A stretch of DNA of 64,000 bases. It comes from Bacteroidota bacterium (GTDB lineage: Bacteria > Bacteroidota > Bacteroidia > Sphingobacteriales > Sphingobacteriaceae). The notes beneath the pieces are model-generated. The model did no database searches. It saw nothing but the letters and a program-made list of their open reading frames with translations, and had not been told where the DNA came from. The translations under genes and the position numbers were made by a program. The DNA lies in contig JABDBM010000004.1 of the NCBI GenBank assembly GCA_013288685.1, positions 42,502 through 106,501 on the forward strand, written 5' to 3'. This document shows, piece by piece, positions 19,465-36,050 of this stretch. Every line of letters starts with the position of its first letter. The first letter of the stretch is position 1.

Positions 19465-22400
19465 TTATTTAGCCGGGTCCGCGCCTTCGCGGATAAATGC
19501 AGCCGCCTGTTGCATCACTTCTGTTAGCTTTTCAATCTTCATCGGTTTAGCCAGGTATTCGTCCATTCCGGCTTTTATACACACATCCCGGTCCTCGGGC
19601 ATTGCATTAGCGGTTAACGCTATTATATAAGGCTGTGTGTAATTTTGGTTTCGGATATTTCGGGTTGCCTCAAGACCATCCATCCCAGGCATTTGAACAT
19701 CCATAAACACCAGGTTATAACCACCTTTGGCCATCATTCCCAGTGCCTCGATGCCGTTAGCCGCCAAATCAATTTCATAACCAAGTTTATTTAAAACCCG
19801 CGCTATAAGTTTTTGATTGATCGGGTTATCTTCAGCAACCAGAATTTTGAACGGAAATTGCGCAGCAAATTTAACATCTAATAATTTCGTTTCTTTTGGA
19901 GCGGGCAGGGCCGGCGCATCTTTTAGCACCTCATTTATTTCGTTAAAAATCAGTTGCTGTTTAACTGGTTTGATCAATACCGACCTGAACAAATCCGGAA
20001 ACTTCCGACTATTTTCATCGCCCCGGCCGCCCATCAGCATCAACGGAATTTCGGCGATTTTGCTTTTGATAGCCCGGGCCAGCGCTACGCCATCCATCTC
20101 CGGCATTTTTAAATCCGTGATCACTAAATCCGGCGCGTTTTCTTTAGACAAAATCTCTAATGCCTGCTTTGCCGATGAGGCAGTAACCACATCGGCACCC
20201 CAATGGAGTAGTTGTTTGCCCAGGGTGCTGAGGCTTGTTAAGTTGTCGTCCACAATCAAAATCTTTTTACCGCTTAATCCACCCGTGGTTATGTACACTT
20301 CAGCCCCGGGAGAGTTTGCAGCGGTTGTTTTAATGGTAAAATTAAAAGTGGTGCCTTCACCAAACAAGCTTTCGGCCCAGACATTGCCGCCCATCAATTT
20401 TACCAGCCGTTCGCTAATAGCCAGGCCTAAGCCGGAGCCACCATATTTGCGGGTTGTTGATGAATCGACCTGCGAAAACGCCTGGAACAAGTTGGAAAGT
20501 TTATCCGTCGGTATTCCTATGCCCGTATCCTTAATACTAAATTTAATTTCCAGTTCAGTTTGTGTTGTTTCTGACACAACTGCGCCAATAAATACTTCAC
20601 CGTGTTTTGTAAACTTGAGCGCATTGCTGATAAGGTTTATCAATACTTGTTTTAAACGCAGATTATCGCCGATCACCTTACCGGGTAAGCTAACATCAAT
20701 GTCATACACAAGTTCAATCCCCTGTTCTTCCGCCTGCTGAATAAATAAATCTACAACATCTTCAACGCTGACGCGTAAATCGAAAATTTCTTTTTCGATC
20801 TCCATTTTACCGGATTCTATTTTCGAGAAATCCAATATATCATTGATAACGCGTACAAGGCTCTCGCCGGAGGAGATAATCGTATCAGTATACTCTTTTT
20901 GCTCCTTAGTTTGCTCTGTTTCGCGCAGCAAAGAGGCCATTCCGATAACACCATTCATCGGTGTTCGTATTTCATGGCTCATAGTGGCTAAAAAAGTACT
21001 TTTGGCCTGATTTGCGCGTTCTGCTTCTTCGCGCGCTATCTTTTCCTCTTCCTTCTTCTTTTCCAGTTCTTCATTTAATGTTTGTAAAAATACAGATTGC
21101 GAGTGAAGTTGTTCAACCTTTTGCGATACCTCGGCGGTCCGTATTTTCACCTGCTGCTCCAGCTCTATCTGCTGTTTTTCAATCATTCTTACCCTAAAAT
21201 GGTATAGTGCATATAACAGACCGGCAACCGAGACAATGAAAAAGAGCCGGAACCACCACGTTGCCCAAAAAGGCGGATCAATGATAATGGTTAAAGTGGC
21301 GCCGGTGTTATTCCACACGCCATCATTATTGGATGCCTTTACATGAAAGACATAGGTGCCGGGATTTAAGTTAGTGTACTCGGCTTTCTTTACATTGCCC
21401 GCGTATACCCAGTCTTTATCAAAATTATCCAGCTTCCAGGCGTATTGATTATTTTCGGGCTGCAAGTAATTTAATGCTGCGAAGCGAAAGGAAATATAGG
21501 ATTGATTGTGTTTCAGCCGGATTTGGCGTGTTAAACCTATATCGCCTTTTAGTATGGAATCCGCTTGCCCGGGGACGATGCTTTTATTAAAAATATTAAA
21601 ATCAGTAATGTACACCGGGGTAATAAAGTCATTGGTTTTTATTTTAGCTGGATAAAATGTATTAAAACCGTGAATGCCGCCAAAAAACATTTCGCCATCC
21701 CTGGTCATTAATGATGCGTTGTATTCAAATTCTTTACCCTGTATGCCATCATTGAGTTTAAATTTTCTGAAGAAATAGGTATCCGGATTAAATTTTGTTA
21801 ACCCTATCGCGCTTGAAATCCATAGGTTGCCGTCTTTGTCCTCGGCAATGCTTTTTATCAGTTCTTTGTCGAGCCCGCCCTTATTGGTGTACAGTCCAAA
21901 TTTTCGCCCCACGGGGTCAAAAAGATATAAACCGATTTTACCGAGCCAAACCCGCCCCTTACTATCGGTAAAAACAGTACCAACATCCTGGCTATAGTAA
22001 TTAAAATAATGTGTAAAACGTTTGGTATGCAGGTTATAGCAATTCAGCGCGCCGTCCACCGCGCCAAACCATACATTTCCAGCCTTATCCTCGTTAATCG
22101 TCCAAATATTGCTTCCCGAAAAGCTGGTCATACCATCAGGATCTTTGAATATCCGCTTAAATTTCCGCGTATTATAATCGAACAAATTGAGTCCCGCCCA
22201 GGTGCCTACCCATAAATTGCCCTCGCTGTCCTGGAAAGTTTTCACTACCCAGTTTGAACTGATAGTAGTGCTGTCGGCCGGATTATTAAGAAACCTCCTA
22301 AATGTTCCGCTTTTAGGATCAAACAAATTGAGCCCGCCCCAGGTGCTCACCCAGAGATTTTTGTCCCTGTCCTGCATAACATCCGTTACGGCATCTGAGC

Positions 22401-23691
22401 TGATGCTTTTGTTGTTACGCGGATTGTTTTTATACAATCGGAACGTTTGATGTTTACGGTTGAATAAATTTAAACCGCCGCCATCAGTACCTATCCAGAT
22501 ATTACCATTTACATCCTCGCAAAAAGATCTCACATCATTATTGCTGATGCTGCTTATGAGTTTTTCTTTACGATAAGTGTTGAATTTATAGGCGCCCGGG
22601 GTGTATAAACTCATCCCGCCGCGGCGTGTACCTACCCATAAGTTGCCTTCCTTGTCCTCAAACAACCCGCAGGCCGTTTTTTGCGACAGCGTTTCAGGGT
22701 CGTCGGATTCGTGCTTGTAATGAAAAAATGAATCCGTTTCCGGATCATACAGATTCAGTCCTCCATCCACGACCCCTACCCAAACACGGCCCTCTCTGTC
22801 AGCAAGCAATCCACCTGAAAAAAAACCAAGTATATTGGCCGACAAGCTGCCTTCGTTACTTACCTGGTGCTTATATTGCTTAAATGTTTTGTGCTTTAAA
22901 TTATAAACCACTACGCCATCGTAAGATGTACCTAACCACAAGTTCCCGTTTTTATCCTGCTGTATATAATTGATGATGTTGGCTGCTTCACCAAAGGGAT
23001 TTGCAATTAAGCTAAAGGTTTTGTTTTTGCGGTTAAACAACTCCAGGCCGGCGTTGGTGGCTACCCAAAGGTTATTGGCGGCATCTTCATAAATACAGTT
23101 GACGGTATCACTGCGTAAACTATTTCTATCCGCGGCATTATGTTTAAAATGCGTAAATACATTAGTTTCCCGGTTTAGCAAATTAAGGCCGCCGCCAATG
23201 GTACCTACCCATAAGTTATTCTGTTGATCTTCGTAAATATTGGTGATTTCATTTCCGCCAATGCTTTTGTCGTTACGCGGGTCATGATGATAGATGGTAA
23301 AATTGTTTTGGTAAGGATTAAAAAGATCAAGCCCGTTTTGAGTGCCTACCCAAAGCCTATGCCTATGGTCTTCATAAATATTACGAATTAAATTATTGCT
23401 TAAACTCAAGCGGTCTTTGGTACTGTTGCGGTATACCCGAATACTGTCACCATCGTAACGGTTTAATCCGTTAACAGTGCCAAACCACATGAAGCCGCGG
23501 TAATCCTGGTAAGTGCTGGTTATAAAACTATTGGAGAGGCCCTGCTCGTCGCTTATTTGTTTAAACTTTAAAACTGGCGCCTGAGCAACGGCAAAGAACG
23601 GGCAAAACGAAAGGAGCAAACATAACAGACCTAAGAGGTTGTAAAACCAAATGCCACCAAAACGACACTGACACTTTAAAATAACCTTCAA
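19465..23691 (-). CDS. hybrid two-component sensor histidine kinase (two-component propeller, Y_Y_Y, HisKA, HATPase, two REC)
   Basis: Multiple GLNLFD-type propeller repeats, Y_Y_Y region, [14 protein letters not shown]-box, DTGIGIP, two REC domains ([24 protein letters not shown]). Confidence 0.92.
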
Positions 23692-23947: not shown

Positions 23948-24976
23948 TTATTTCAAAATATACAATACACTAAAAGCCACATCCACGTTTATTTTCCCTT
24001 TCGCGTCAGCAGCGTCGGCCTCATAAGTATCCGATTTCCTCCGCAACATCACATCGGCCAGTTTTTTCTTTTTATCAAGAATAGCATCCCGGTCGGCCTG
24101 GCGCAAAGTGTCATTTGGCTTATCCTTCAGACGTAGGGAATCCTTTAAAAGTTTGAGCCCAGGTGCAAAACTGAGCCTTAACGGCTTAAATACTACATCA
24201 GACCCATTGAACCATTTTACCATTTTGGTTTGCAGCTTAAATTTTACCGGCAGGCCCGCCAGGCCGCGCAGATTAAACAACTGTATATTATCTGCTTTAA
24301 TATAAAGTGTATCTATTTTATGCCCGAAGTTAATATCAAGCAGGTGGCCCGATGAAAAAACACAGGATGCGTTACCTGATATATCGCCGATTTTTATCGT
24401 GTTAAATCCTATAGCCGTCACGTTGCCTGTCTGTAGTTTGCCTATGGTCATACTGCCCTGCTCAATGCGGATGTGGCCTGCAGTTAGCAGCTTTCCGGCG
24501 GTAAAATCGCCAAATTTTTCATAAATAGTCAGTTCCCCTGCATAGTCGCCGGTATTAATGTTTCCGAATTGGTTGGTTACCGTCAGCGGTAAATCATCAG
24601 GAGCATATACCACATAGCTCACACTGCTTTGTATTTTGGAAAGAGACGAATTGGTATCGATAGTCGTGCGGCAGCTGATTACATGTTGAGTCCTGCCAGC
24701 GTAAATATGCACCCGGTTAGCCCGCTTATTTAATGGTGAATTTTGAGTTTGGGTGGCGATGGTGATAATGATACGCACTTTTCGATGTCGCCATGTTTTA
24801 ATTTCTACATCGCCATACTGGTTATCAATAACCAGTTGGTCATTTTTCAACAAGTTTAAAGTTTTGATGATGGTTTTATGACCAACAGGTGAGGGCACCA
24901 CTGCCCATAGGTTACCCCAACAAAGACTGCAGCACAGCAACAGCATTAAACTATATTTCTTTAACCGATTTTTCAT
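23948..24976 (-). CDS. putative adhesin/DUF4097-like secreted protein
   Basis: Signal peptide, repetitive beta pattern (VIDNQYGDVEIKTW, VTNQFGNINTGDY). Confidence 0.55.
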   Translation of the reverse strand: MKNRLKKYSLMLLLCCSLCWGNLWAVVPSPVGHKTIIKTLNLLKNDQLVIDNQYGDVEIKTWRHRKVRIIITIATQTQNSPLNKRANRVHIYAGRTQHVISCRTTIDTNSSLSKIQSSVSYVVYAPDDLPLTVTNQFGNINTGDYAGELTIYEKFGDFTAGKLLTAGHIRIEQGSMTIGKLQTGNVTAIGFNTIKIGDISGNASCVFSSGHLLDINFGHKIDTLYIKADNIQLFNLRGLAGLPVKFKLQTKMVKWFNGSDVVFKPLRLSFAPGLKLLKDSLRLKDKPNDTLRQADRDAILDKKKKLADVMLRRKSDTYEADAADAKGKINVDVAFSVLYILK

Positions 24977-25637
24977 GATTACTGGTTGATTGCGCCTCGC
25001 GGATAATTTGCAATTGATTGCCTAATATTTTTTCCTGTAGTTGCAGGTTTTCTATCATCGACTCCAGCACTTTTTGCCTGTTGATGCTACTTGGTAATTG
25101 ATTTCTTAACTGGCTATAAGCGTCGCTTAAATCCAACAGGGCCTTTTGGCATTCTTTATATAAATCAGGGTCAGAACTTTGCAGGCGCCTGATCTGCCGC
25201 TGCCTGATCTCCACGAGCCGACTATAATAAAAAATTGATTGCCGGTATTCGTCACCTGTTAATTCATAAGCGCTATTTTTCCGGGATGGGCTGGTGCTGG
25301 TTTTTAAATCAATCTCCTTTTTTGCATCAATTGTATCTCCGTTTTTAATTTTTGGTATTTCTTTCGCTATGTTTTGACCAGTATGAATTTTAGGGCTGAT
25401 GTTGGTAATTTGCGTAGCCCCATGTTGTTTATTCACTATCAGCAACCCAACGCTCCCTAATAGAAGCAGGCTTGCCGCAATACTCCAGGCAATCCGCTGA
25501 ATTTTAACAATCCGCGCTTTCCGGGCTGTATGCAATATCAGTTGCTGTTCAATCTTATCCCATAAATCGGGCGATGGCGACCCTTTTTCAAATTGGTCGC
25601 GGTTTTGGCCCATATATTTTTCAAATTCCTCTTCCAT
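24951..25637 (-). CDS. membrane protein, likely anti-sigma-like partner
   Basis: N-terminal soluble region, single TM (IAWSIAASLLLLGSVGLLIV), directly downstream of ECF sigma. Confidence 0.5.
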   Translation of the reverse strand: MEEEFEKYMGQNRDQFEKGSPSPDLWDKIEQQLILHTARKARIVKIQRIAWSIAASLLLLGSVGLLIVNKQHGATQITNISPKIHTGQNIAKEIPKIKNGDTIDAKKEIDLKTSTSPSRKNSAYELTGDEYRQSIFYYSRLVEIRQRQIRRLQSSDPDLYKECQKALLDLSDAYSQLRNQLPSSINRQKVLESMIENLQLQEKILGNQLQIIREAQSTSNHEKSVKEI

Positions 25638-25642
25638 AATCT

Positions 25643-26182
25643 TTATATTTTATGGCCTATACTGCTTAATATTTTCTGCCGTCCACGTAAATACTGGCTC
25701 CTTATGGTGGCCGACGGCGTTTCCATCATTGCAGCAATTTCTTCAAAACTCATTCCCTCAAACACGTGCAGGTTTATTACTATTCGGTATTTATCGGGCA
25801 GCAAACCCAAAGCCTCCGTTATCAGTTCTATTTTTTGCTGAAATGCGTGTTCGTCAATTTGCTCCTCAACGGCTGTATTGTATAAACCAGTTTCCTCCAG
25901 TTCCACCCAGCTTTGCCGGCTTCGCTTTATAAAGTTTAAAGATTTATTAATAACAATCCCTTTCAGCCAGCCTCCGAAAGCTTCAATATTCTTCAACTTA
26001 TCAAGCCTTGTAAAAGCTTCCATAAACGCTTCCTGCAAAATATCTTCAGCATCAGTATCGTATACTACAATGCGCAAACACGTATGATACATGGCCCGGC
26101 TATACCTGTTGTACAACAACCGGTAGCTTTTGATGTCACCCTTTTTGCATTTTTCTATTAAGTCGGCTTCTTCCTTACTCAA
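25643..26182 (-). CDS. ECF-type RNA polymerase sigma factor
   Basis: Sigma70 r2 (DAEDILQEAFMEAFTRLDK) and r4 (EGMSFEEIAAMMETPSATIRSQYLRGRQKI). Confidence 0.92.
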   Translation of the reverse strand: MSKEEADLIEKCKKGDIKSYRLLYNRYSRAMYHTCLRIVVYDTDAEDILQEAFMEAFTRLDKLKNIEAFGGWLKGIVINKSLNFIKRSRQSWVELEETGLYNTAVEEQIDEHAFQQKIELITEALGLLPDKYRIVINLHVFEGMSFEEIAAMMETPSATIRSQYLRGRQKILSSIGHKI

Positions 26183-26361: not shown

Positions 26362-27603
26362 ATGAAATACAGGTTCTTACTTATTCTTTTGTTCTTTCCA
26401 TTTGGCGTATTATTTGCGCAGGGCACGCTGTCGTCTGATGACCTTTTTCAGCAGGCCCGAAAAATGGCCTTCGATAATAAAAACTACCCCGGCGCCATAG
26501 CCTTATGTAAAGAAGCACTTTCCAAAAGCCCGGATTATACCGACATACGCGTTTTTTTAGGGCGGCTTTATACCTGGTCAAAGTACACTGATAGTGCCCG
26601 CACCCAGCTTATTGAAGTTTTAACCAGGCACCCCGATAATGAAGATGGCGCCATTGCCTACGCCAGTTTAGAATACTGGAACAATAATTCGGCAAAAGCA
26701 TTGCAATTTGTACAACAAGGGTTAAAGTACCATCCGGCATCAACTGATCTGCTGCTGTTAAAAGCAAAAGTGCTTATTGATTTAAAGCGGTTTCAGGAAG
26801 CAAACCTGGCTATAGATACTCTACTAAAAGCCAATCCTAAAAATACGGATGCCCGGGCACTGGCGGACCGAATAAGCGATAACACATCTAAAAACAAGAT
26901 GAGCATCAACTATGATTTCGTTTATTTTGACAAACAATTTAATGATCCCTGGCACCTTGCAAGCGTAGATTATACCAGGCAAACGGATATAGGTTCAATA
27001 ACGGGCCGCGTAAACTTCGCCAATCGTTTTAACACCAATGGCGCCCAGCTTGAAATGGACGCGTATCCGCATCTGTCAAAAACGTTTTATGCCTATTTAA
27101 ACGCAGGCTACTCGGACAACGTAGGGGTATTTCCTAAATACCGGGCCGGATTTTCGTTATATGCCAATTTGCCGGCGAGTTTTGAAGGCGAGGCGGGCTT
27201 TAGGTTTTTGAGTTTTAGTGGCCCCACCTGGATATATACTGCATCGGTAAGTAAATATTATAAAGACTACTGGTTTAATTTCCGCACTTTCCTTACCCCC
27301 TCCAACAATAATATTTCGCAATCTTATGCGCTTAATGTTCGGTACTATTATGGGGGTGCTGACGATTATTTTAGCCTGGGGTTAGGCACTGGCATTTCAC
27401 CTGATGACCCGGGCAACAGTGTTTTATTGAATAGTGGTAACGTTTATAAGTTGCGATCAAATAACGTATCAGCAGGGTATCGCCATTCATTTAAAACCTT
27501 AAATGTGTTTTTTATAAATTTAAGTTTAGCCAACCAGGAATATCTGCCGCACACCAGGGGTAACCAGTTTGATGCCGGTGTTGGATACATCAGGCGTTTT
27601 TAA
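26362..27603 (+). CDS. YaiO-family outer membrane beta-barrel protein with TPR N-terminus
   Basis: Signal peptide, TPR-like repeats, C-terminal beta barrel ending in ...GVGYIRRF. Confidence 0.8.
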   Translation: MKYRFLLILLFFPFGVLFAQGTLSSDDLFQQARKMAFDNKNYPGAIALCKEALSKSPDYTDIRVFLGRLYTWSKYTDSARTQLIEVLTRHPDNEDGAIAYASLEYWNNNSAKALQFVQQGLKYHPASTDLLLLKAKVLIDLKRFQEANLAIDTLLKANPKNTDARALADRISDNTSKNKMSINYDFVYFDKQFNDPWHLASVDYTRQTDIGSITGRVNFANRFNTNGAQLEMDAYPHLSKTFYAYLNAGYSDNVGVFPKYRAGFSLYANLPASFEGEAGFRFLSFSGPTWIYTASVSKYYKDYWFNFRTFLTPSNNNISQSYALNVRYYYGGADDYFSLGLGTGISPDDPGNSVLLNSGNVYKLRSNNVSAGYRHSFKTLNVFFINLSLANQEYLPHTRGNQFDAGVGYIRRF

Positions 27604-27615
27604 TTTTCTTTTTTT

Positions 27616-28782
27616 ATGACCAAAAAACAATTGTTTCTGGGCGTACTGATCTTTATTGTTTTATTGCCGCTTTGGATGTGGCTGGCCTGGTTTTTTACAC
27701 CCCAAAAAAAACTGGTAGTAGCCATTATAGATAAAACCGTGCTAACCCCGCAAGGGCAGGAACATAAATCGTTAAACTGGATATTAACTAATGAACGCTA
27801 TACAAAAACACATCACAAAGGATATAAAATAAACCACGACTATTTTGGATTTTTCCCCTTACCTGACGAAAAATTTAAAATAAAAGGATTAGAACGATTT
27901 TCGGTAGCGCAACTACAGCAATTGAGTGCAGATGCCGATATGGTTTATGTTACCGATACTTACGGCATTTACAAAAACGAATGGTACAGCGGCAAGGGCA
28001 GTACAGAACGTTCGGGCATAGTATATGGTGGAATGAGCGATAACGACGTAACCTTACTCGACGATATGAAAGCGAAACACAAGCTAATTGTGACTGAGTT
28101 TAACAGCATAGGATCGCCCACTACCCTAGAAGTGAGGGGTCGGTTTGAACGTTTGTTTGCTATGCATTGGAGCGGTTGGACAGCAAGATATTTCGATAGT
28201 TTTGATACCCTTAAAAATAAAGAATTACCCAAATGGCTTATCAGGAGTTACAAAAGGGAGCATGATAATAAATGGCCGTTTCATAAATCGGGGATAGCAT
28301 TTGTGAGCGATGATGACCGGGTTGCCGTATTGGAGGACAGCACCCATTTGACCGACCCCGTACCACATATATTAACCCTGGCTTACGGCCAGGAAAAATT
28401 AGGACTTCCTGAAAAAATGAAATATCCCTTTTGGTTTGATATTATTATTCCAGACAAGGTGGTTAACCAGGTGGTTTCCACCTTTGACATTAGCGCAAAC
28501 GCTAATGGCGTAGCCGAATTAAAAAAATATGGTATCCCCTTAACTTTCCCTGCCGTATTGATGCATCGTGGGGCGGACTATCAATTTTATTATTTTTCGG
28601 GAGATTTTTGTGATAATCCCATTACTACAATAACCTCCTATTTTAAAGGCATCCATTATTTTAAATGGCTATTTTACAACGAGGATGATCCTATTGAACG
28701 CAACAGCTTTTTCTGGAAATTCTATCAGCCATTAATGAAGAATATTCTGAATGATGACGTGAATAGGCTATCGAAAAAATAA
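27616..28782 (+). CDS. membrane-anchored protein of unknown function
   Basis: N-terminal TM (LFLGVLIFIVLLPLWMWLAWFF); 12 nt after the YaiO-like gene; no family recognised. Confidence 0.7.
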   Translation: MTKKQLFLGVLIFIVLLPLWMWLAWFFTPQKKLVVAIIDKTVLTPQGQEHKSLNWILTNERYTKTHHKGYKINHDYFGFFPLPDEKFKIKGLERFSVAQLQQLSADADMVYVTDTYGIYKNEWYSGKGSTERSGIVYGGMSDNDVTLLDDMKAKHKLIVTEFNSIGSPTTLEVRGRFERLFAMHWSGWTARYFDSFDTLKNKELPKWLIRSYKREHDNKWPFHKSGIAFVSDDDRVAVLEDSTHLTDPVPHILTLAYGQEKLGLPEKMKYPFWFDIIIPDKVVNQVVSTFDISANANGVAELKKYGIPLTFPAVLMHRGADYQFYYFSGDFCDNPITTITSYFKGIHYFKWLFYNEDDPIERNSFFWKFYQPLMKNILNDDVNRLSKK

Positions 28783-28896
28783 GCAGGAACTCCGTCGAAA
28801 TAACTTCCGCAAAATCTACAATATCATTAACCTGGTAGTTGAGCAGCTTTTTTTCGATGTTTAATTGCGGAACTTATTTTGAAAGTATTAGCTAAG

Positions 28897-30945
28897 TTAT
28901 TTTTTGGGCGCATAATGCCGGCTAATGCTATCCGGGATGATTTTTGCGCCGTTTATTACCAGGTTATTACGCTTTTTAAACGCCTCAAAAGCATTTTGTA
29001 ACTGATTAAGCTTATTGTCGTCCTGTACCGGTTCCTCGCCTAAGTCGGATGACAGTTTAAATAGACTTGTACCGTTTAAATGATACTCCCCCATAATAAA
29101 ATCAATCATGTCGGTTTTAGTTTGCATCAGTGGGTATTGATGCAGGTTTTGAAAGTTAACGCTGGTATCTAAGCCCTGCCCCATCCAGCTTACCAATGAC
29201 GGCCCTTTAATTTTAAAATTAGTTTTCAAATAAGCCACCAAGCTTGGGCTGATGTCAAAATGAGTGGATATGGAAGACAGCTGAGCAGTTCGCTTTAGCA
29301 TTGGCGAGTAAATAATCAGCGGTACATGATAGCGATCTATCTTATCACTCATGGGTATTTCGGGCATACGGTGGTCGCCGGTAATTAAAAACATGGTGTT
29401 GGCGTAATCGCTTCTTTTACGGTAAGCCGCAAAAAAATCTCGCATGGCATCATCCAAATACAAAATACTGGCGTATTGATTTTGGTAACTGCGGTACTTG
29501 CTTTTCTTTGCGCCATCAAACCCTAATTTTACCATTCGCTGCTCAAACCGTTGCAGGTAGGCGGTTTCTTCATTTATTATAAAGGGATCGTGAGTGGCAA
29601 CGGTTAATATCACACTTAACTGCGGCGCAGATGGCTGGTTACCGGTACTTCTGGTTGTTAAATAATGACGGAATAATTCTTTATCATTATACCCCCAGGT
29701 AAACCCATTAGTTGCAGGTAATTTAGTATAACCTGCCGGGAACGATTTTTCATCATTCAGTTCATCAACCTGGTTTTTCCGCAAAAACACATCCATATTA
29801 TCAAAGTGCGAATCGCCCCCATAATAAAACGAAGTATGATAACCGTTATACTTTAATAAACTCATCAACGACAAATGTGCAGGCATCTGTTCGCCGAGTT
29901 CCAGGAACCCATTTTTAGCAAAAGGTAATGAGCCCAACAATGATGGCAGCACGGCAAAGGTGCGACCGCCTTCGCTTAAAAAATTGCGCCAGTATAAACT
30001 CTGGTTAGATAATGAATCGATAAAGGGCGTGAAATTACCCAGGTACGCGCCTTCATTGGTGAAAGCCCGACCCAGGCCTTCAACCAACACAATTACGATA
30101 TTGGGCGGTGTGGCTGTTGCTTTAAAAAATGGTGATAATACATCCTTGCTGCTATCGGTATGCAAAAATGGGAAGTTACCGGCATCAACGTAATTATAAG
30201 CCGCGATGCTTTGCTGTCCGCCGTAATCGCCAATATAGCTATCGGCATAAATGTCTACCTCATCTTCGTCCGGGAAAAAGTGATTTAGTGTAGAACTATA
30301 AAAGAAATCAGATTTATTGACCACTAAGCTGTTGGCAAAATCCGAATGAAGATTACCATGCGTAATCATTTTTGATGTACTGGTAACATACAGCAATAAC
30401 GACAGCGCCGGCAAAACCACAGCAGCGCCGAAACCTAACTTAATTTTGCCTGGAAGCCATTTAAGTACTGTAATAATACAGGCGATGCATACTACAAACC
30501 CTAAAACCATTATCACGCTTACCCCGCCCGATGCCCCTATGGTTTGTTTAATATCCGCTATTGAATATCCATACAGGTCGGCGCCTAATGGTAACAGGGC
30601 CTTGCTAAAATATAGGATAAGACTTATATGTATAACCACCAGCACCGCAATAAATACTTTGTAAAGTATTTTTGCCAGCAACGGGCGAAACAAGAATACC
30701 GGGATGTAAACCAGGTATATGATAAATAAATAATTAAGTAAAAAGAGTGTATCTGCCAGAAACGACCAAAATATGATTCCAGCTATATTGGGGGGAAACT
30801 CATGAATTTTTCCGTTATAAACTATCTCGAAAATGCTTAATACAAACAGCATTAAAAGCCATAACAGCGATAAAACCGAAAAGGAAATGGTTGCTGCTTT
30901 TATTTTGCCAACTATGGGCTGCGTTTTCAGATCCTCAAGCTTCAT
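28897..30945 (-). CDS. LTA synthase-like membrane sulfatase/phosphoglycerol transferase
   Basis: N-terminal TM helices then NIVIVLVEGLGRAF...EGGRTFAVLPSLLGS...FLITGDHRMPE. Confidence 0.85.
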   Translation of the reverse strand: MKLEDLKTQPIVGKIKAATISFSVLSLLWLLMLFVLSIFEIVYNGKIHEFPPNIAGIIFWSFLADTLFLLNYLFIIYLVYIPVFLFRPLLAKILYKVFIAVLVVIHISLILYFSKALLPLGADLYGYSIADIKQTIGASGGVSVIMVLGFVVCIACIITVLKWLPGKIKLGFGAAVVLPALSLLLYVTSTSKMITHGNLHSDFANSLVVNKSDFFYSSTLNHFFPDEDEVDIYADSYIGDYGGQQSIAAYNYVDAGNFPFLHTDSSKDVLSPFFKATATPPNIVIVLVEGLGRAFTNEGAYLGNFTPFIDSLSNQSLYWRNFLSEGGRTFAVLPSLLGSLPFAKNGFLELGEQMPAHLSLMSLLKYNGYHTSFYYGGDSHFDNMDVFLRKNQVDELNDEKSFPAGYTKLPATNGFTWGYNDKELFRHYLTTRSTGNQPSAPQLSVILTVATHDPFIINEETAYLQRFEQRMVKLGFDGAKKSKYRSYQNQYASILYLDDAMRDFFAAYRKRSDYANTMFLITGDHRMPEIPMSDKIDRYHVPLIIYSPMLKRTAQLSSISTHFDISPSLVAYLKTNFKIKGPSLVSWMGQGLDTSVNFQNLHQYPLMQTKTDMIDFIMGEYHLNGTSLFKLSSDLGEEPVQDDNKLNQLQNAFEAFKKRNNLVINGAKIIPDSISRHYAPKK

Positions 30946-30951
30946 AGTGAA

Positions 30952-32379
30952 TTATTTTTTTTTCGGTGATGACAAGCCCTGGCGGGTCATTTCGCCCCAT
31001 GCGTTCTTTTTCCGTAATAAATCAATATTGCCTTTTATAGCCGACCATACCACAAAAGGGTGAAAAATAAAAGGCTCTAAAAATGCAGTTAACATTAAGT
31101 TAGCAATATCTTTTTGCTGCTTGTATTGATGGTAAGTTAATACCTCCATTAAGACGGCAAAAATTGAATACAAAAACCCAAAGCAAAATACAAAAGCTAA
31201 CAGGATAAAAAAGAAACTCCAGTTTATTAATCCAAATATCCCGAAAATGATGAATACCGACATGCCAACAAATTCAACAATGGGGGCTAAAAATTCAAAA
31301 AAGAACCAATAGGGATAACTGATCATACCCAGCAAGCCATAGCTTGGGTTAAAGAACATAATTTTATGAAAACGCAATGTTTCAATGGTTCCGCGCGTCC
31401 ATCGGTTGCGCTGCCGGCCCAGTATTTTAAATGAAGCGGGAGCCTCCGTCCAGCATAGCGGATCGGGAATAAAAGCCACCTTATAGGGTTGTTTTAATTC
31501 TTCCATATAACGGCGCATCCTCACCACCAGCTCCATATCTTCACCTACAGTTTTATGGTTATAGCCGCCGCATTTTATTACAATTTCCTTATCAAAGGCC
31601 CCAAACGCACCCGATATAAGCAGCAAACCGTTTAGTCGGCTCCAGGCCATACGTCCCAGTAAAAAGGCACGTATGTATTCAAGTGTTTGTACACGCGGTA
31701 AAAACTGTTCGGGTAAGTGTACCTTTATCAGCCTTCCGTTTTCAATTTCGCAGCCGTTGGCAATGCGTATTACGCCGCCGGTTGCAATTACCCTATGATT
31801 TGGGTATTCCAAAAACGGTTTGGCCAATTTCAATAACGCGTCCTGCTCTAAAACACAATCCACATCAATGCATACAATATAATCGTTTTTGGCAATGTTA
31901 ACACCCACATTCAGGGCATCTGCTTTACCCCCGTTTTCTTTATCAACTACAATTAGTTTTCGGTACACGTGGTTACGGCTTTTATAAACGCCACGCACTT
32001 TTTTTGTGTGAATTTGCTGATTTACAAAAAAGTCGATTTTGTACAGGTCATAAGCGGCAATTAATTTTTCTAATGAATCGTCCTTACTGCCATCGTTCAG
32101 GATAATTACCTCCATATTATTATAATAAATGGAAAGCAGCGACCTTACGTTCTCAATTATATTTGCGCCTTCGTTATAGGCCGGCGCCAAAATACTCATG
32201 CTGGGCGTTTGTGTTGAACCAGCTAATATCCGGTAATCAGTAAAACTATTTTTATGCAGGTAATTATTTACGGCGCCACTGGAGTATATCCCAATAAAAA
32301 TATAGCACGACATTAACGTAACAGAATAAGCCAGTATAGCATAAGTAAAAAAATCAAATACAAAGGTTTGCCAACTCAT
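30952..32379 (-). CDS. glycosyltransferase family 2 (processive, membrane)
   Basis: ILAPAYNEGANI, ENGGKADALNVG, CIDVDC, QRNRWTRG motifs plus C-terminal TM helices. Confidence 0.92.
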   Translation of the reverse strand: MSWQTFVFDFFTYAILAYSVTLMSCYIFIGIYSSGAVNNYLHKNSFTDYRILAGSTQTPSMSILAPAYNEGANIIENVRSLLSIYYNNMEVIILNDGSKDDSLEKLIAAYDLYKIDFFVNQQIHTKKVRGVYKSRNHVYRKLIVVDKENGGKADALNVGVNIAKNDYIVCIDVDCVLEQDALLKLAKPFLEYPNHRVIATGGVIRIANGCEIENGRLIKVHLPEQFLPRVQTLEYIRAFLLGRMAWSRLNGLLLISGAFGAFDKEIVIKCGGYNHKTVGEDMELVVRMRRYMEELKQPYKVAFIPDPLCWTEAPASFKILGRQRNRWTRGTIETLRFHKIMFFNPSYGLLGMISYPYWFFFEFLAPIVEFVGMSVFIIFGIFGLINWSFFFILLAFVFCFGFLYSIFAVLMEVLTYHQYKQQKDIANLMLTAFLEPFIFHPFVVWSAIKGNIDLLRKKNAWGEMTRQGLSSPKKK

Positions 32380-33437
32380 ATAGCCAATTCGTTTTTAACC
32401 TGCGCAATTATTTCAATAAACGGATATTGCAACGCTTGTTTGTGGTTCATTAAACTTTCAAGTCCTTTGGCGCTAATATTTGCAAGTGCGCGGGCGGCAA
32501 ATAGTTTTATTTCTACATTTTCATGATCAAGCTGCTGTAGTAAAAAAGGAATATCATCATCAGTAGCAATATTTTGTAATACCTTAATAATGGCCAACTG
32601 ATGTTTGGGATGGGCGCTTAAAAACTGGCCAATTAACAGGCGGGAAGTTTCGGCAGTGTATATTTCGCCCAGGCTTATTATCGCCTGTAACTTCACTTGC
32701 TTATCGGCATCTGCCAGGCATCCCACCACACTATCGTGCAGCTCAAAACGATGATAGCCCCTAACTAACTTTAAGGCAAAAACAACCACCGTTTTATTCG
32801 GGGATTTAAGCCATTTCTCAATCCCCTTAAAATTATCGGGCGAGATACGTAACAGTTCCTGTAATAATTTAATTTGCTGCCATTCCGTAATAGGGTACGA
32901 TACCACATCTAAAAAGCGCAGGCCTTCAAAGCCATAAAAATTAACAATAGCAATCTGCGCCTCCATGCGCACCAGCTCGTTGGCGTTATTGGTAAACCTG
33001 TAAATTTTGGTTAAATATTCTTTAAGGCCCATAACAGATAATTCTTGTATGGCTTGTGCTTTTAAGTACCAACGGCGATTTTTAAGGCCGGCGAGGGCAT
33101 ATTGATTAAGGTTAAGCTGCAGGTACAGTTGTTTAATATTTTCGGCGGCACTGCCGCTTACATTCTTTTTGGCTTTTAACAGTTCGTTTGTTAAAAATTT
33201 CCGGAAGGGAGTTTGTTTTAATGATTGCTGCACCCGGAGAGTAACCGGTATATCATCCTCTATCTCTTCAAAAAATATAGCTTTCCTTATTAACAAATTA
33301 GCCATAACCGTCCATTTTTGTTGCTTTTTAGTACTCTTATTTCTTAAATACATATAAATAAGTATAAAAGCAATGAGCGATAAAGCAACTAAAATGAAAA
33401 AAAAGATAGCCAGAATAAAATAGTAAGGCCTAATCAT
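32376..33437 (-). CDS. membrane-anchored HEAT-repeat protein
   Basis: N-terminal TM, HEAT-like repeats (VKLQAIISLGEIY, VEIKLFAARALANIS); 4-nt overlap with the GT2 gene. Confidence 0.82.
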   Translation of the reverse strand: MIRPYYFILAIFFFILVALSLIAFILIYMYLRNKSTKKQQKWTVMANLLIRKAIFFEEIEDDIPVTLRVQQSLKQTPFRKFLTNELLKAKKNVSGSAAENIKQLYLQLNLNQYALAGLKNRRWYLKAQAIQELSVMGLKEYLTKIYRFTNNANELVRMEAQIAIVNFYGFEGLRFLDVVSYPITEWQQIKLLQELLRISPDNFKGIEKWLKSPNKTVVVFALKLVRGYHRFELHDSVVGCLADADKQVKLQAIISLGEIYTAETSRLLIGQFLSAHPKHQLAIIKVLQNIATDDDIPFLLQQLDHENVEIKLFAARALANISAKGLESLMNHKQALQYPFIEIIAQVKNELAI

Positions 33438-33455
33438 AATAGCTTACAAAGCGTT

Positions 33456-33830
33456 TTAAGCATGCACGGCGTGGGCAAAACCGAAACGTCTGACCCGTAC
33501 AGTGAGTTCATTTGGACTAAACGGCTTCGTAATATAATCATCGGCGCCTAATTGAAAAGCTTCCAGCACCACATCTTCCTGGTACATTCCCGAAAGTATA
33601 ATTATCGGAATCCGGTTCACATAATTTTGTCGTACAGCGCTTATAATTTCTAATCCCGATGAGTAGGGCATCATAATATCGGTAATCACCAGGTCGGGGC
33701 TGTGTATCGCTATTTGTTCTAAAGCCTCTTTACCATCGTGTGTCACAATCACTTCATGTCCGTCTCTTTTCAAACGAAATTCTAAAGTTTTAAGCATTAA
33801 ATCATCATCTTCCGCTACTAAAATCCTCAT
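33456..33830 (-). CDS. single-domain response regulator (REC only)
   Basis: VAEDDD, VITDIMMP, GADDYITKPFSPNEL. Confidence 0.92.
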   Translation of the reverse strand: MRILVAEDDDLMLKTLEFRLKRDGHEVIVTHDGKEALEQIAIHSPDLVITDIMMPYSSGLEIISAVRQNYVNRIPIIILSGMYQEDVVLEAFQLGADDYITKPFSPNELTVRVRRFGFAHAVHA

Positions 33831-34008
33831 AACTCTTTATACTAAATAACACAACAAAAAGTTGTTAAGTAAAACGTATATTTTTGCGCAATGTGGTAAT
33901 ATCCCGCTAATTATAAAGCTACTATTAAATCTATTAAAATGCTATATTTACTTCAAAAAAGTTTATTTGCGGCATCATTGCTGCCTGCAATTGTCATTGA
34001 TTAAATAC

Positions 34009-35211
34009 ATGTTAAACAACAAGCCACCGGTACCAAAACATGAGTCGGATAGAATTTTAGAACTATCTAAACTCGATTTGGATTATTCAACACTCGAAGA
34101 TAATTTCAAGTACCTCACCAGGTTAGCCGCAAAAATAACCGGAAAGCCCATTGCTTTAATTAATCTGATTGATTCCTTTACCCAATGGACCATTTCAAAT
34201 CATGGGTTTCCTTTAAAATCAATGCCCCGCGAGGATTCTGTTTGTCAATATACAATTGCCGGTGATCACAACTATTTCGAGGTTAAGAACTTGTTACAGG
34301 ATGAACGATTTAAGGATAAGCCCTATGTTAGCCCGCCCGATGGCTTGCGGTATTATATGGGGGTTCCATTAAAAAGTGAAGACGGCAACTCTATTGGCGC
34401 CTTATGTGTTGTTGACATGCAGGTAAGTGAACTTAGCGCTGAACAAATAGATTTTTTAGAAATTATTGCTGATGAAATAGTTAACAGGCTGTACGAATTA
34501 AAACGTACGCACCAATTATTTAACAAGTTTACCGCAGCGCAGGAAGAGCATAAAACATTGGCGCGCAATATACGCGAGCCCTTAGCCGGTATAATTGGCA
34601 TTTTACAGGTAATAATAGAAGATGCCGGCAATACCAAAATTGACGGCGAGGTTTTACAATATATTAAACTGATAGAGAAAAGCAGTAATTCGATATTAAA
34701 CCTTACGGACGCTGTATTAGATACCGACGAAGAAAGGCACCTGAATAAAGACCAAGGCGATTTAATATGGCTAAAAACTACCATCGAAACGCTTTACATG
34801 CCCCTGTGCCTGCAAAAAAACATCGGCTTTAAAATAAACGTTTCAACCCGGACGGAACGAATACCTTTTTCAAAAAACAAGCTCGTGCAGATAACCGGTA
34901 ATTTAATAACCTACGCTATCCGGAGTATTCCTGATTTTGAAAACATAACGCTTGACTTAATTTTAAAAGTTGAAGCGAGCCAAAATGTTCTTTGTATAAA
35001 TTTATCGTTTTTGGATAGCGGAACGGACATCATCAATAAAGTATTTGATAAAACCGGGCTTTCCGCTTCCGAACAAAAAAACACCGGCGTTCAGGCTTTG
35101 GTACTTGTTCAAAAAATGATTGAGAGCTTAAATGGCCAAATAGAAACCAGTATTATGCCGGGAACAAAAAGAGTATTTAACATCATAATTCCACAAAATC
35201 AGCCGAAATAA
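34009..35211 (+). CDS. GAF-domain histidine-kinase-like protein with degenerate H/N boxes
   Basis: GAF (ALINLIDSFTQWTISNHG...YYMGVPLKSEDGNSIGALCVVD); kinase-like C-terminus. Start moved from 33862 to the Met before LNNKPPVPKHESDR. Confidence 0.78.
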   Translation: MLNNKPPVPKHESDRILELSKLDLDYSTLEDNFKYLTRLAAKITGKPIALINLIDSFTQWTISNHGFPLKSMPREDSVCQYTIAGDHNYFEVKNLLQDERFKDKPYVSPPDGLRYYMGVPLKSEDGNSIGALCVVDMQVSELSAEQIDFLEIIADEIVNRLYELKRTHQLFNKFTAAQEEHKTLARNIREPLAGIIGILQVIIEDAGNTKIDGEVLQYIKLIEKSSNSILNLTDAVLDTDEERHLNKDQGDLIWLKTTIETLYMPLCLQKNIGFKINVSTRTERIPFSKNKLVQITGNLITYAIRSIPDFENITLDLILKVEASQNVLCINLSFLDSGTDIINKVFDKTGLSASEQKNTGVQALVLVQKMIESLNGQIETSIMPGTKRVFNIIIPQNQPK

Positions 35212-35285: not shown

Positions 35286-36050
35286 ATGAACCGTTTTAAA
35301 CTTATTCTCGTTTTTTTTGTGGTACAATTTTCATTTGCTTTCAGTACGATGGCGCAAAAGCAATTCAAAGTTCTATTGGTAACAACTACCAGGGGTTGGC
35401 ATCACGAGTCGTTGCATGCAGGTGTACTGGCCATTCAGCAATTAGGTGTCCACAATTTTTTTGATGTAGTTTTATGGGAAGATCCCAACGGATTCACCGA
35501 TAAATACCTGGAACAATTTCAGGCGGTGATATTTTTAAATACCACCGGCGATATTTTTGACGAAACCCAGCAAAAAGTAATGGAGCGCTTTATTGAATCA
35601 GGAAAAGGATTTGTGGGCATTCATAGTGCGTCGGATACGGAATATGGATGGGAATGGTACACCAAGCTTGTTGGGCGAATGTTTCATATTCATCCAGCGG
35701 TACAAACAGCCAAAATGAAGGTGCTCGACCCCTCGTTTCCCGGGCTGCAGGGTTTTGCTAACGACAAGCTATGGACGGAGGAGTGGTATGAATTCGGCCC
35801 CGAAAAAATTTCAGGCTTAAATTATATTTTAGGGGTGGATGAGTCTACCTACAATCCGAAGGCCGATTGGGGAGCAAGGGGAAAAGGAGAAGGAATGGGG
35901 AAATTACATCCGCTGGCCTGGTATCACAACTATGATGGCGGCCGCGCATTTTATACAGCGCTGGGGCACTTACCAACAAACTTTAGCGAACCTGCTTTTT
36001 TGGACCATTTATATGCCGGCATATTATGGGCTGCTACCGGTAAAAAATAA
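35286..36050 (+). CDS. ThuA domain-containing secreted protein
   Basis: KVLLVTTTRGWHHESL; VGIHSASDTEYGWEWYTKLVGRMFHIHP; LPTNF. Confidence 0.9.
   Translation: MNRFKLILVFFVVQFSFAFSTMAQKQFKVLLVTTTRGWHHESLHAGVLAIQQLGVHNFFDVVLWEDPNGFTDKYLEQFQAVIFLNTTGDIFDETQQKVMERFIESGKGFVGIHSASDTEYGWEWYTKLVGRMFHIHPAVQTAKMKVLDPSFPGLQGFANDKLWTEEWYEFGPEKISGLNYILGVDESTYNPKADWGARGKGEGMGKLHPLAWYHNYDGGRAFYTALGHLPTNFSEPAFLDHLYAGILWAATGKK

Follow-up and report, generated by a model that had tools for sequence, protein, structure and literature searches.

A recurrent Bacteroidota gene cassette proposed to encode a synthase-dependent surface-polysaccharide system under receiver and HEAT-repeat control

The window analysed here, a 64,000-nucleotide (nt) stretch of contig JABDBM010000004.1 from the Bacteroidota assembly GCA_013288685.1, carries between positions 26362 and 35211 a cassette in which a GT2 synthase is encoded alongside a YaiO-family exporter, an LtaS-like enzyme, a HEAT-repeat protein and a receiver (REC) protein. 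We found that this cassette is a recurrent Bacteroidota system and not a chance cluster. We propose, with a probability of about 0.7, that it is a synthase-dependent surface-polysaccharide system in which control by phosphorylated REC and the HEAT protein replaces that by cyclic di-GMP (c-di-GMP). The genes, with lengths in amino acids (aa), are as follows.

26362..27603, plus strand: YaiO-family exporter, 413 aa (PF19413, E 1.2e-74, plus tetratricopeptide repeats [TPRs])
27616..28782, plus strand: P2, 388 aa, with no Pfam or NCBIfam match
28897..30945, minus strand: LtaS-like membrane enzyme of the sulfatase fold, 682 aa (PF00884, E 2.6e-31)
30952..32379, minus strand: GT2 processive-type membrane synthase, 475 aa (Pfam/NCBIfam matches and motifs)
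32376..33437, minus strand: HEAT-repeat protein, 353 aa (HEAT_2, PF13646, E 3e-13)
33456..33830, minus strand: stand-alone REC without an output domain, 124 aa (PF00072, E 1.4e-28)
34009..35211, plus strand (open reading frame opens at 33862): GAF protein with a degenerate histidine-kinase-like part, about 400 aa from the ATG (GAF plus weak HisKA/HATPase matches); accessory, not core

All seven open reading frames of an earlier sequence-only reading of this DNA were present, and Pfam and NCBIfam scans agreed with the labels it had given them. The REC, HEAT, GT2 and LtaS-like genes form a single packed four-gene run on the minus strand, from 33830 down to 28897. Within it, the 4-nt overlap of GT2 and HEAT reported earlier is correct (32376-32379), and the gap between REC and HEAT measures 18 nt in place of the 19 nt first given. 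The LtaS-like gene, previously described as flanking the run, does adjoin it, but lies 6 nt below GT2 and is thus its fourth member. The genes for YaiO and P2, 12 nt apart, are convergent with this run, and the GAF gene is divergent from REC.

Recurrence was assessed in 294 Bacteroidota genomes, with GT2 scored as present at E<=1e-60. By this threshold GT2 occurred in 71 genomes from 44 genera. A YaiO-family gene was detected in 70 genomes, every one of which also had GT2, and in none of the GT2-less genomes (Fisher p 1e-67, a value that ignores relatedness among genomes that are not independent). Carriers included Pedobacter, Mucilaginibacter, Sphingobacterium, Chitinophaga, Pontibacter, Flavobacterium, Chryseobacterium, Polaribacter and metagenome-assembled genomes of Bacteroidales. 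We fetched 154 loci: 74 from a set seeded in part with HEAT matches and 80, the cleaner set, from named genomes drawn by GT2 alone. In 71/74 and 79/80 of these, respectively (150/154 together), GT2 was directly preceded by HEAT in the same orientation, most commonly at a spacing of -4 nt. A stand-alone REC was found no more than 5 kb away in 122 loci, an LtaS-like part was near or fused in 71, and P2 was in the cassette in 25. The entire order YaiO-P2-LtaS-GT2-HEAT-REC was retained in loci L205, L206 and L209. Lack of synteny in relatives, or a GT2 at work in some unrelated pathway, had been named as an observation that would count against a joint system; the set proved to be syntenic over several Bacteroidota orders. 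When the window's own genome was searched with the HEAT protein, only two matches were returned, each beside a GT2 of this type, one in the window and one on contig C176. The latter belongs to a second REC-HEAT-GT2-LtaS copy (L059:857-5662), whose GT2 is 77% identical to that of the window and which is cut by the contig end.

The GT2 protein carries the motifs D96, D172xD174, E280D281 and Q323RxRW327, which were near-invariant over 121 sequences, and so has the D, DxD, ED and QxxRW signature of the inner-membrane GT2 enzymes of synthase-dependent exopolysaccharide systems. The GT2 profile scored the E. coli synthases PgaC, YaiP, BcsA and NfrB at 117, 54, 31 and 14.5 bits, respectively. Against the PgaC equivalog TIGR03937 the window protein reached 129 bits, where the cut-off is 422.

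The LtaS-like enzyme appears to act together with this synthase. In 28 loci, from Sphingobacterium, Chryseobacterium, Empedobacter, Chitinophagaceae and others, GT2 and LtaS are a single protein of ~1140-1270 aa. These natural fusions are strong evidence for joint function, as the coupling drawn in the sequence-only reading would predict, and because of them we dropped the view of the LtaS-like gene as a mere neighbour. Glu289, Thr329 (Thr/Ser in 44/45) and Asp524-His525 are conserved, which corresponds to the catalytic Thr and the metal-binding Glu and Asp-His of LtaS. The closest named families are LtaS and phosphoglycerol transferase I, and matches in the PDB were to 3lxq (E 1e-18) and LtaS (E 1e-4). 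The score against the LtaS NCBIfam equivalog was 42 bits, far from the cut-off of 970.

The proposed role of the YaiO protein in export is supported by its predicted structure. The protein starts with a signal peptide, and its AlphaFold2 model (pLDDT 90) places five TPRs (residues ~25-175) ahead of a 14-strand outer-membrane beta-barrel (residues 178-412), consistent with the periplasmic TPR scaffold and barrel exporter of synthase-dependent systems. In a library of 350,542 PDB chains its best match was BcsC, the cellulose exporter, followed by PelB, which exports Pel. The TIGR04390 YaiO domain was matched at 204 bits (cut-off, 32), and the PgaA equivalog TIGR03939, a family with a 16-strand barrel, at 41 bits (cut-off, 367). 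Two other genes were observed beside YaiO. In a P2-less, Flavobacterium-type subtype (L067, L076-L079, L112, L114, L182 and L198), YaiO is followed by a DUF4838 protein of ~740 aa that is possibly glycosidase-like, a hint of a glycosidase-like partner that does not in itself identify the sugar. In one locus (L181:7198-9087), a protein with an N-terminal transmembrane segment and a weak polysaccharide-deacetylase match is encoded between a long TPR-YaiO gene and HEAT.

P2 is, by sequence, a new protein family: neither sequence nor profile searches of Pfam, NCBIfam and the PDB returned a match. One N-terminal transmembrane helix and a domain predicted to be periplasmic were modelled (AlphaFold2, pLDDT 88.5). 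Fold matches in the PDB were to the GATase1-like 3rht, the ThuA-like 4e5v, GH42 beta-galactosidases and the Agd3 deacetylase; because their E values were 1e-4 to 1e-3 and their TM-scores ~0.27-0.38 by query length, these predicted similarities give a fold class and not a family. Thirty-one columns were invariant over 13 homologues, including D39, K40, E161, N163, R191 and D330, which suggests an active or binding site. Two further copies (L052 and L054) lie on contig stretches without GT2. P2 was also compared with the deacetylase-like protein of L181, and the two are unrelated. Beyond the GAF gene, the window has a ThuA-family gene (35286-36050, plus strand), with no sequence link to P2 seen.

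Control by c-di-GMP is typical, although not universal, in synthase-dependent exopolysaccharide systems; its parts were scarce in genomes that carry the cassette. PilZ was detected in 0/43 carrier genomes and GGDEF in 6/43, with none in the other 37, under searches whose controls gave matches. Neither domain was found in the window's own genome, which is 71% complete. The REC protein retains its phosphoacceptor D51 in 116/121 sequences and K102 in 121/121. The HEAT protein has a single N-terminal transmembrane segment (residues 8-26), and its repeats are predicted to be cytoplasmic. The REC lacks an output domain and the HEAT protein is predicted to lie in the cytoplasm on a membrane anchor, so the simplest reading is that GT2 is switched post-translationally, through a presumed contact among the three. 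The near-universal operon position of these genes, together with the lack of PilZ and, for the most part, of GGDEF in carriers, supports the earlier suggestion that REC and HEAT would act as controllers.

The input to such a switch probably comes from histidine kinases. Hybrid histidine kinases are common upstream of REC; kinases with an H-box and a G1 box were upstream in 63/154 loci, many of them sharing the GAF domain of the window gene, and GAF-kinase homologues were upstream of GT2 in 49/154. In the window's copy an Asn stands where the H-box His should be ('RNIREP'), and both the N-box and the glycine boxes have decayed; the two Daejeonella copies have likewise lost their ATP-site boxes. 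The window protein is therefore probably a pseudo-kinase, as first described, and either regulates or is decaying, but the gene did not recur in the eight neighbourhoods examined in the same genus. Being variable in near relatives, it was dropped as a core part. With this copy degenerate, the REC must be fed by another kinase. A candidate only is the 1408-aa hybrid kinase at 19465-23691 (minus strand), which combines a Reg_prop propeller with two REC domains; five other loci have a similar gene close to the cassette. In G148, a deep relative within Bacteroidota, a GAF-PAS-GGDEF-EAL protein (L098:3683-7039) takes the place of a kinase directly upstream of REC-HEAT-GT2-YaiO. Because the same GAF domain heads this protein, the input may have been switched between phospho- and c-di-GMP chemistry.

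On these observations we propose the following mechanism. The membrane GT2 would polymerise a sugar and thread the chain into the periplasm; with PgaC as the closest known relative among those tested, an amino sugar is one possibility. There the LtaS-like enzyme would decorate it with a lipid-derived phospho-group of the phosphoglycerol or phosphoethanolamine type and, in lineages that have it, membrane-anchored P2 would bind or process it. YaiO would guide the chain on its TPRs and release it via the 14-strand barrel. Histidine-kinase input, instead of c-di-GMP, would phosphorylate the stand-alone REC, which would then act on the membrane-anchored HEAT protein, an obligate partner of GT2, to turn synthesis on or off. 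The division of labour first suggested, with synthesis by GT2, modification by the LtaS-like enzyme, export by YaiO and control by HEAT and REC, is thus borne out in its arrangement by synteny, fusions and structure, and its functional steps stay at the level of proposal. A more far-reaching version has about even odds in our judgement: that in bacteria without PilZ, and mostly without GGDEF, a stand-alone REC at the end of a histidine-kinase phosphorelay gates GT2 through an obligate HEAT co-subunit, with the synthase often coupled or fused to its own LtaS-like decorator and P2 representing a new class of proteins that process glycans in the periplasm. The regulatory module is probably new.

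Other explanations were weighed against this proposal. The genes might form a loose cluster of no joint function, as patchy distribution (GT2 in only 10/61 genomes of the window's genus) and varying gene order among cassette subtypes would allow; we judge this already refuted by the HEAT-GT2 adjacency, the genome co-occurrence of 70/71 and the natural fusions. Alternatively, GT2 may place sugars on a lipid carrier and the LtaS-like enzyme build or add phosphopolyol units, YaiO then placing at the outer membrane a glycolipid or a glycan that is lipid-anchored or teichoic-like, and not a free exopolysaccharide. The LtaS and phosphoglycerol transferase I affinities, the one-protein form of GT2 and LtaS in 28 loci and a GT2 score far under the PgaC cut-off would all fit such a product. 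We nevertheless regard it as unlikely, given that the best folds for YaiO are exporters of linear polymers, that GT2 carries the processive QxxRW motif, and that many cassettes pair GT2 with YaiO without an LtaS-like gene. Less probable still is a diverged poly-N-acetylglucosamine (PNAG) system of the Pga type in which HEAT has taken over the position of PgaD. PgaC being the nearest synthase and the deacetylase-like gene of L181 speak for this, but GT2 (129 versus 422 bits) and YaiO (41 versus 367) fall far below the Pga equivalog cut-offs, the window cassette has no PgaB-like gene, and carriers lack PilZ and mostly GGDEF.

Several observations also weigh against the synthase-dependent, REC/HEAT-controlled system that we favour. 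REC was not seen at all loci, although fusion, or loss where a contig stops, may account for some of the gaps. The LtaS-like part and P2 are optional, since only 71/154 and 25 loci have them. The YaiO barrel has 14 strands, versus 16 in PgaA and BcsC (PMC9384988). The GAF-PAS-GGDEF-EAL protein of G148 may leave c-di-GMP input possible in some lineages.

The cassette is present in about a quarter of the Bacteroidota genomes sampled, yet we found no description of it in the open-access literature searched, subscription journals being outside the search; to that extent the claim that it is undescribed holds. In the same literature, searches for YaiO with HEAT, REC or Bacteroidota gave mostly polymerase chain reaction markers and E. 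coli lists, and the main text of an operon survey (PMC7112194) mentions neither YaiO, HEAT nor Bacteroidetes. If our proposal is true, it explains the role of YaiO in Bacteroidota, as exporters for one synthase, and shows how PilZ-less bacteria switch a processive synthase. The product would be a phospho-decorated polymer of possible relevance to biofilm, to phage adsorption and to life in soil or the sea. Given the fusions and the structure of the operon, the REC-HEAT-GT2 coupling lends itself to direct testing.

The GAF gene probably starts at the ATG at 34009, in preference to the TTG at 33862. Promoter patterns, both sigma-70-like and of the Bacteroidota -33/-7 kind, were no more frequent than chance, and scans for Rfam families and tRNAs gave no match. 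Divergent from YaiO, at 23948-26182 on the minus strand, are a sigma-70-family factor resembling the extracytoplasmic function group and then two genes for uncharacterised proteins of 228 and 342 aa, neither with a Pfam match.

In comparison with known systems, the cassette is best read as sharing its principle with Pga, Bcs and Nfr and as a member of none; every specific membership test fails except that for YaiO. PgaABCD contains the nearest known synthase tested, PgaC, and resembles the cassette in its TPR-porin fusion exporter and in a small membrane protein that partners the synthase; the cassette differs in having no PgaB or PgaD homologue in the window (the deacetylase-like gene was seen only in L181), in its 14 rather than 16 strands, in scores far below the family cut-offs and in a genome without PilZ or GGDEF. 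Bcs provides the best structural match of YaiO in BcsC, and it too includes an enzyme that transfers a phospho-group: BcsG, annotated as a cellulose phosphoethanolamine transferase. In contrast to Bcs, the cassette lacks PilZ, BcsB and BcsZ, and the LtaS-like profile gave no match to BcsG. The uncharacterised yaiO-yaiX-yaiP-yaiS locus of E. coli likewise has a GT2 gene in the vicinity of a YaiO barrel. This layout, cited in the sequence-only reading, is real (yaiO-yaiP-yaiS), but a broken yaiX intervenes between yaiO and yaiP. The E. coli YaiO, at 257 aa, aligns to the barrel part only, its neighbouring GT2 is distant (54 bits), and the locus has a predicted deacetylase, YaiS, and no REC, HEAT or LtaS gene. 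The Nfr/NGR system of E. coli consists of NfrB (GT2-MshEN), NfrA (TPR and outer-membrane pore) and YbcH (PMC8669469). The cassette differs from it in having no MshEN or other extra domain on its 475-aa GT2, in the distance between the two synthases (14.5 bits), in REC and HEAT taking the place of c-di-GMP and in the additional LtaS-like enzyme. The two are alike in a membrane GT2 with DxD, ED and QxxRW motifs, an outer-membrane protein that joins TPRs to a pore domain, an inner-membrane-anchored periplasmic protein, overlapping genes and local post-translational control of the synthase, which for the cassette is what we propose. Nfr thus offers a published precedent for the combination of a GT2, a TPR-barrel and an anchored periplasmic protein (PMC8669469).

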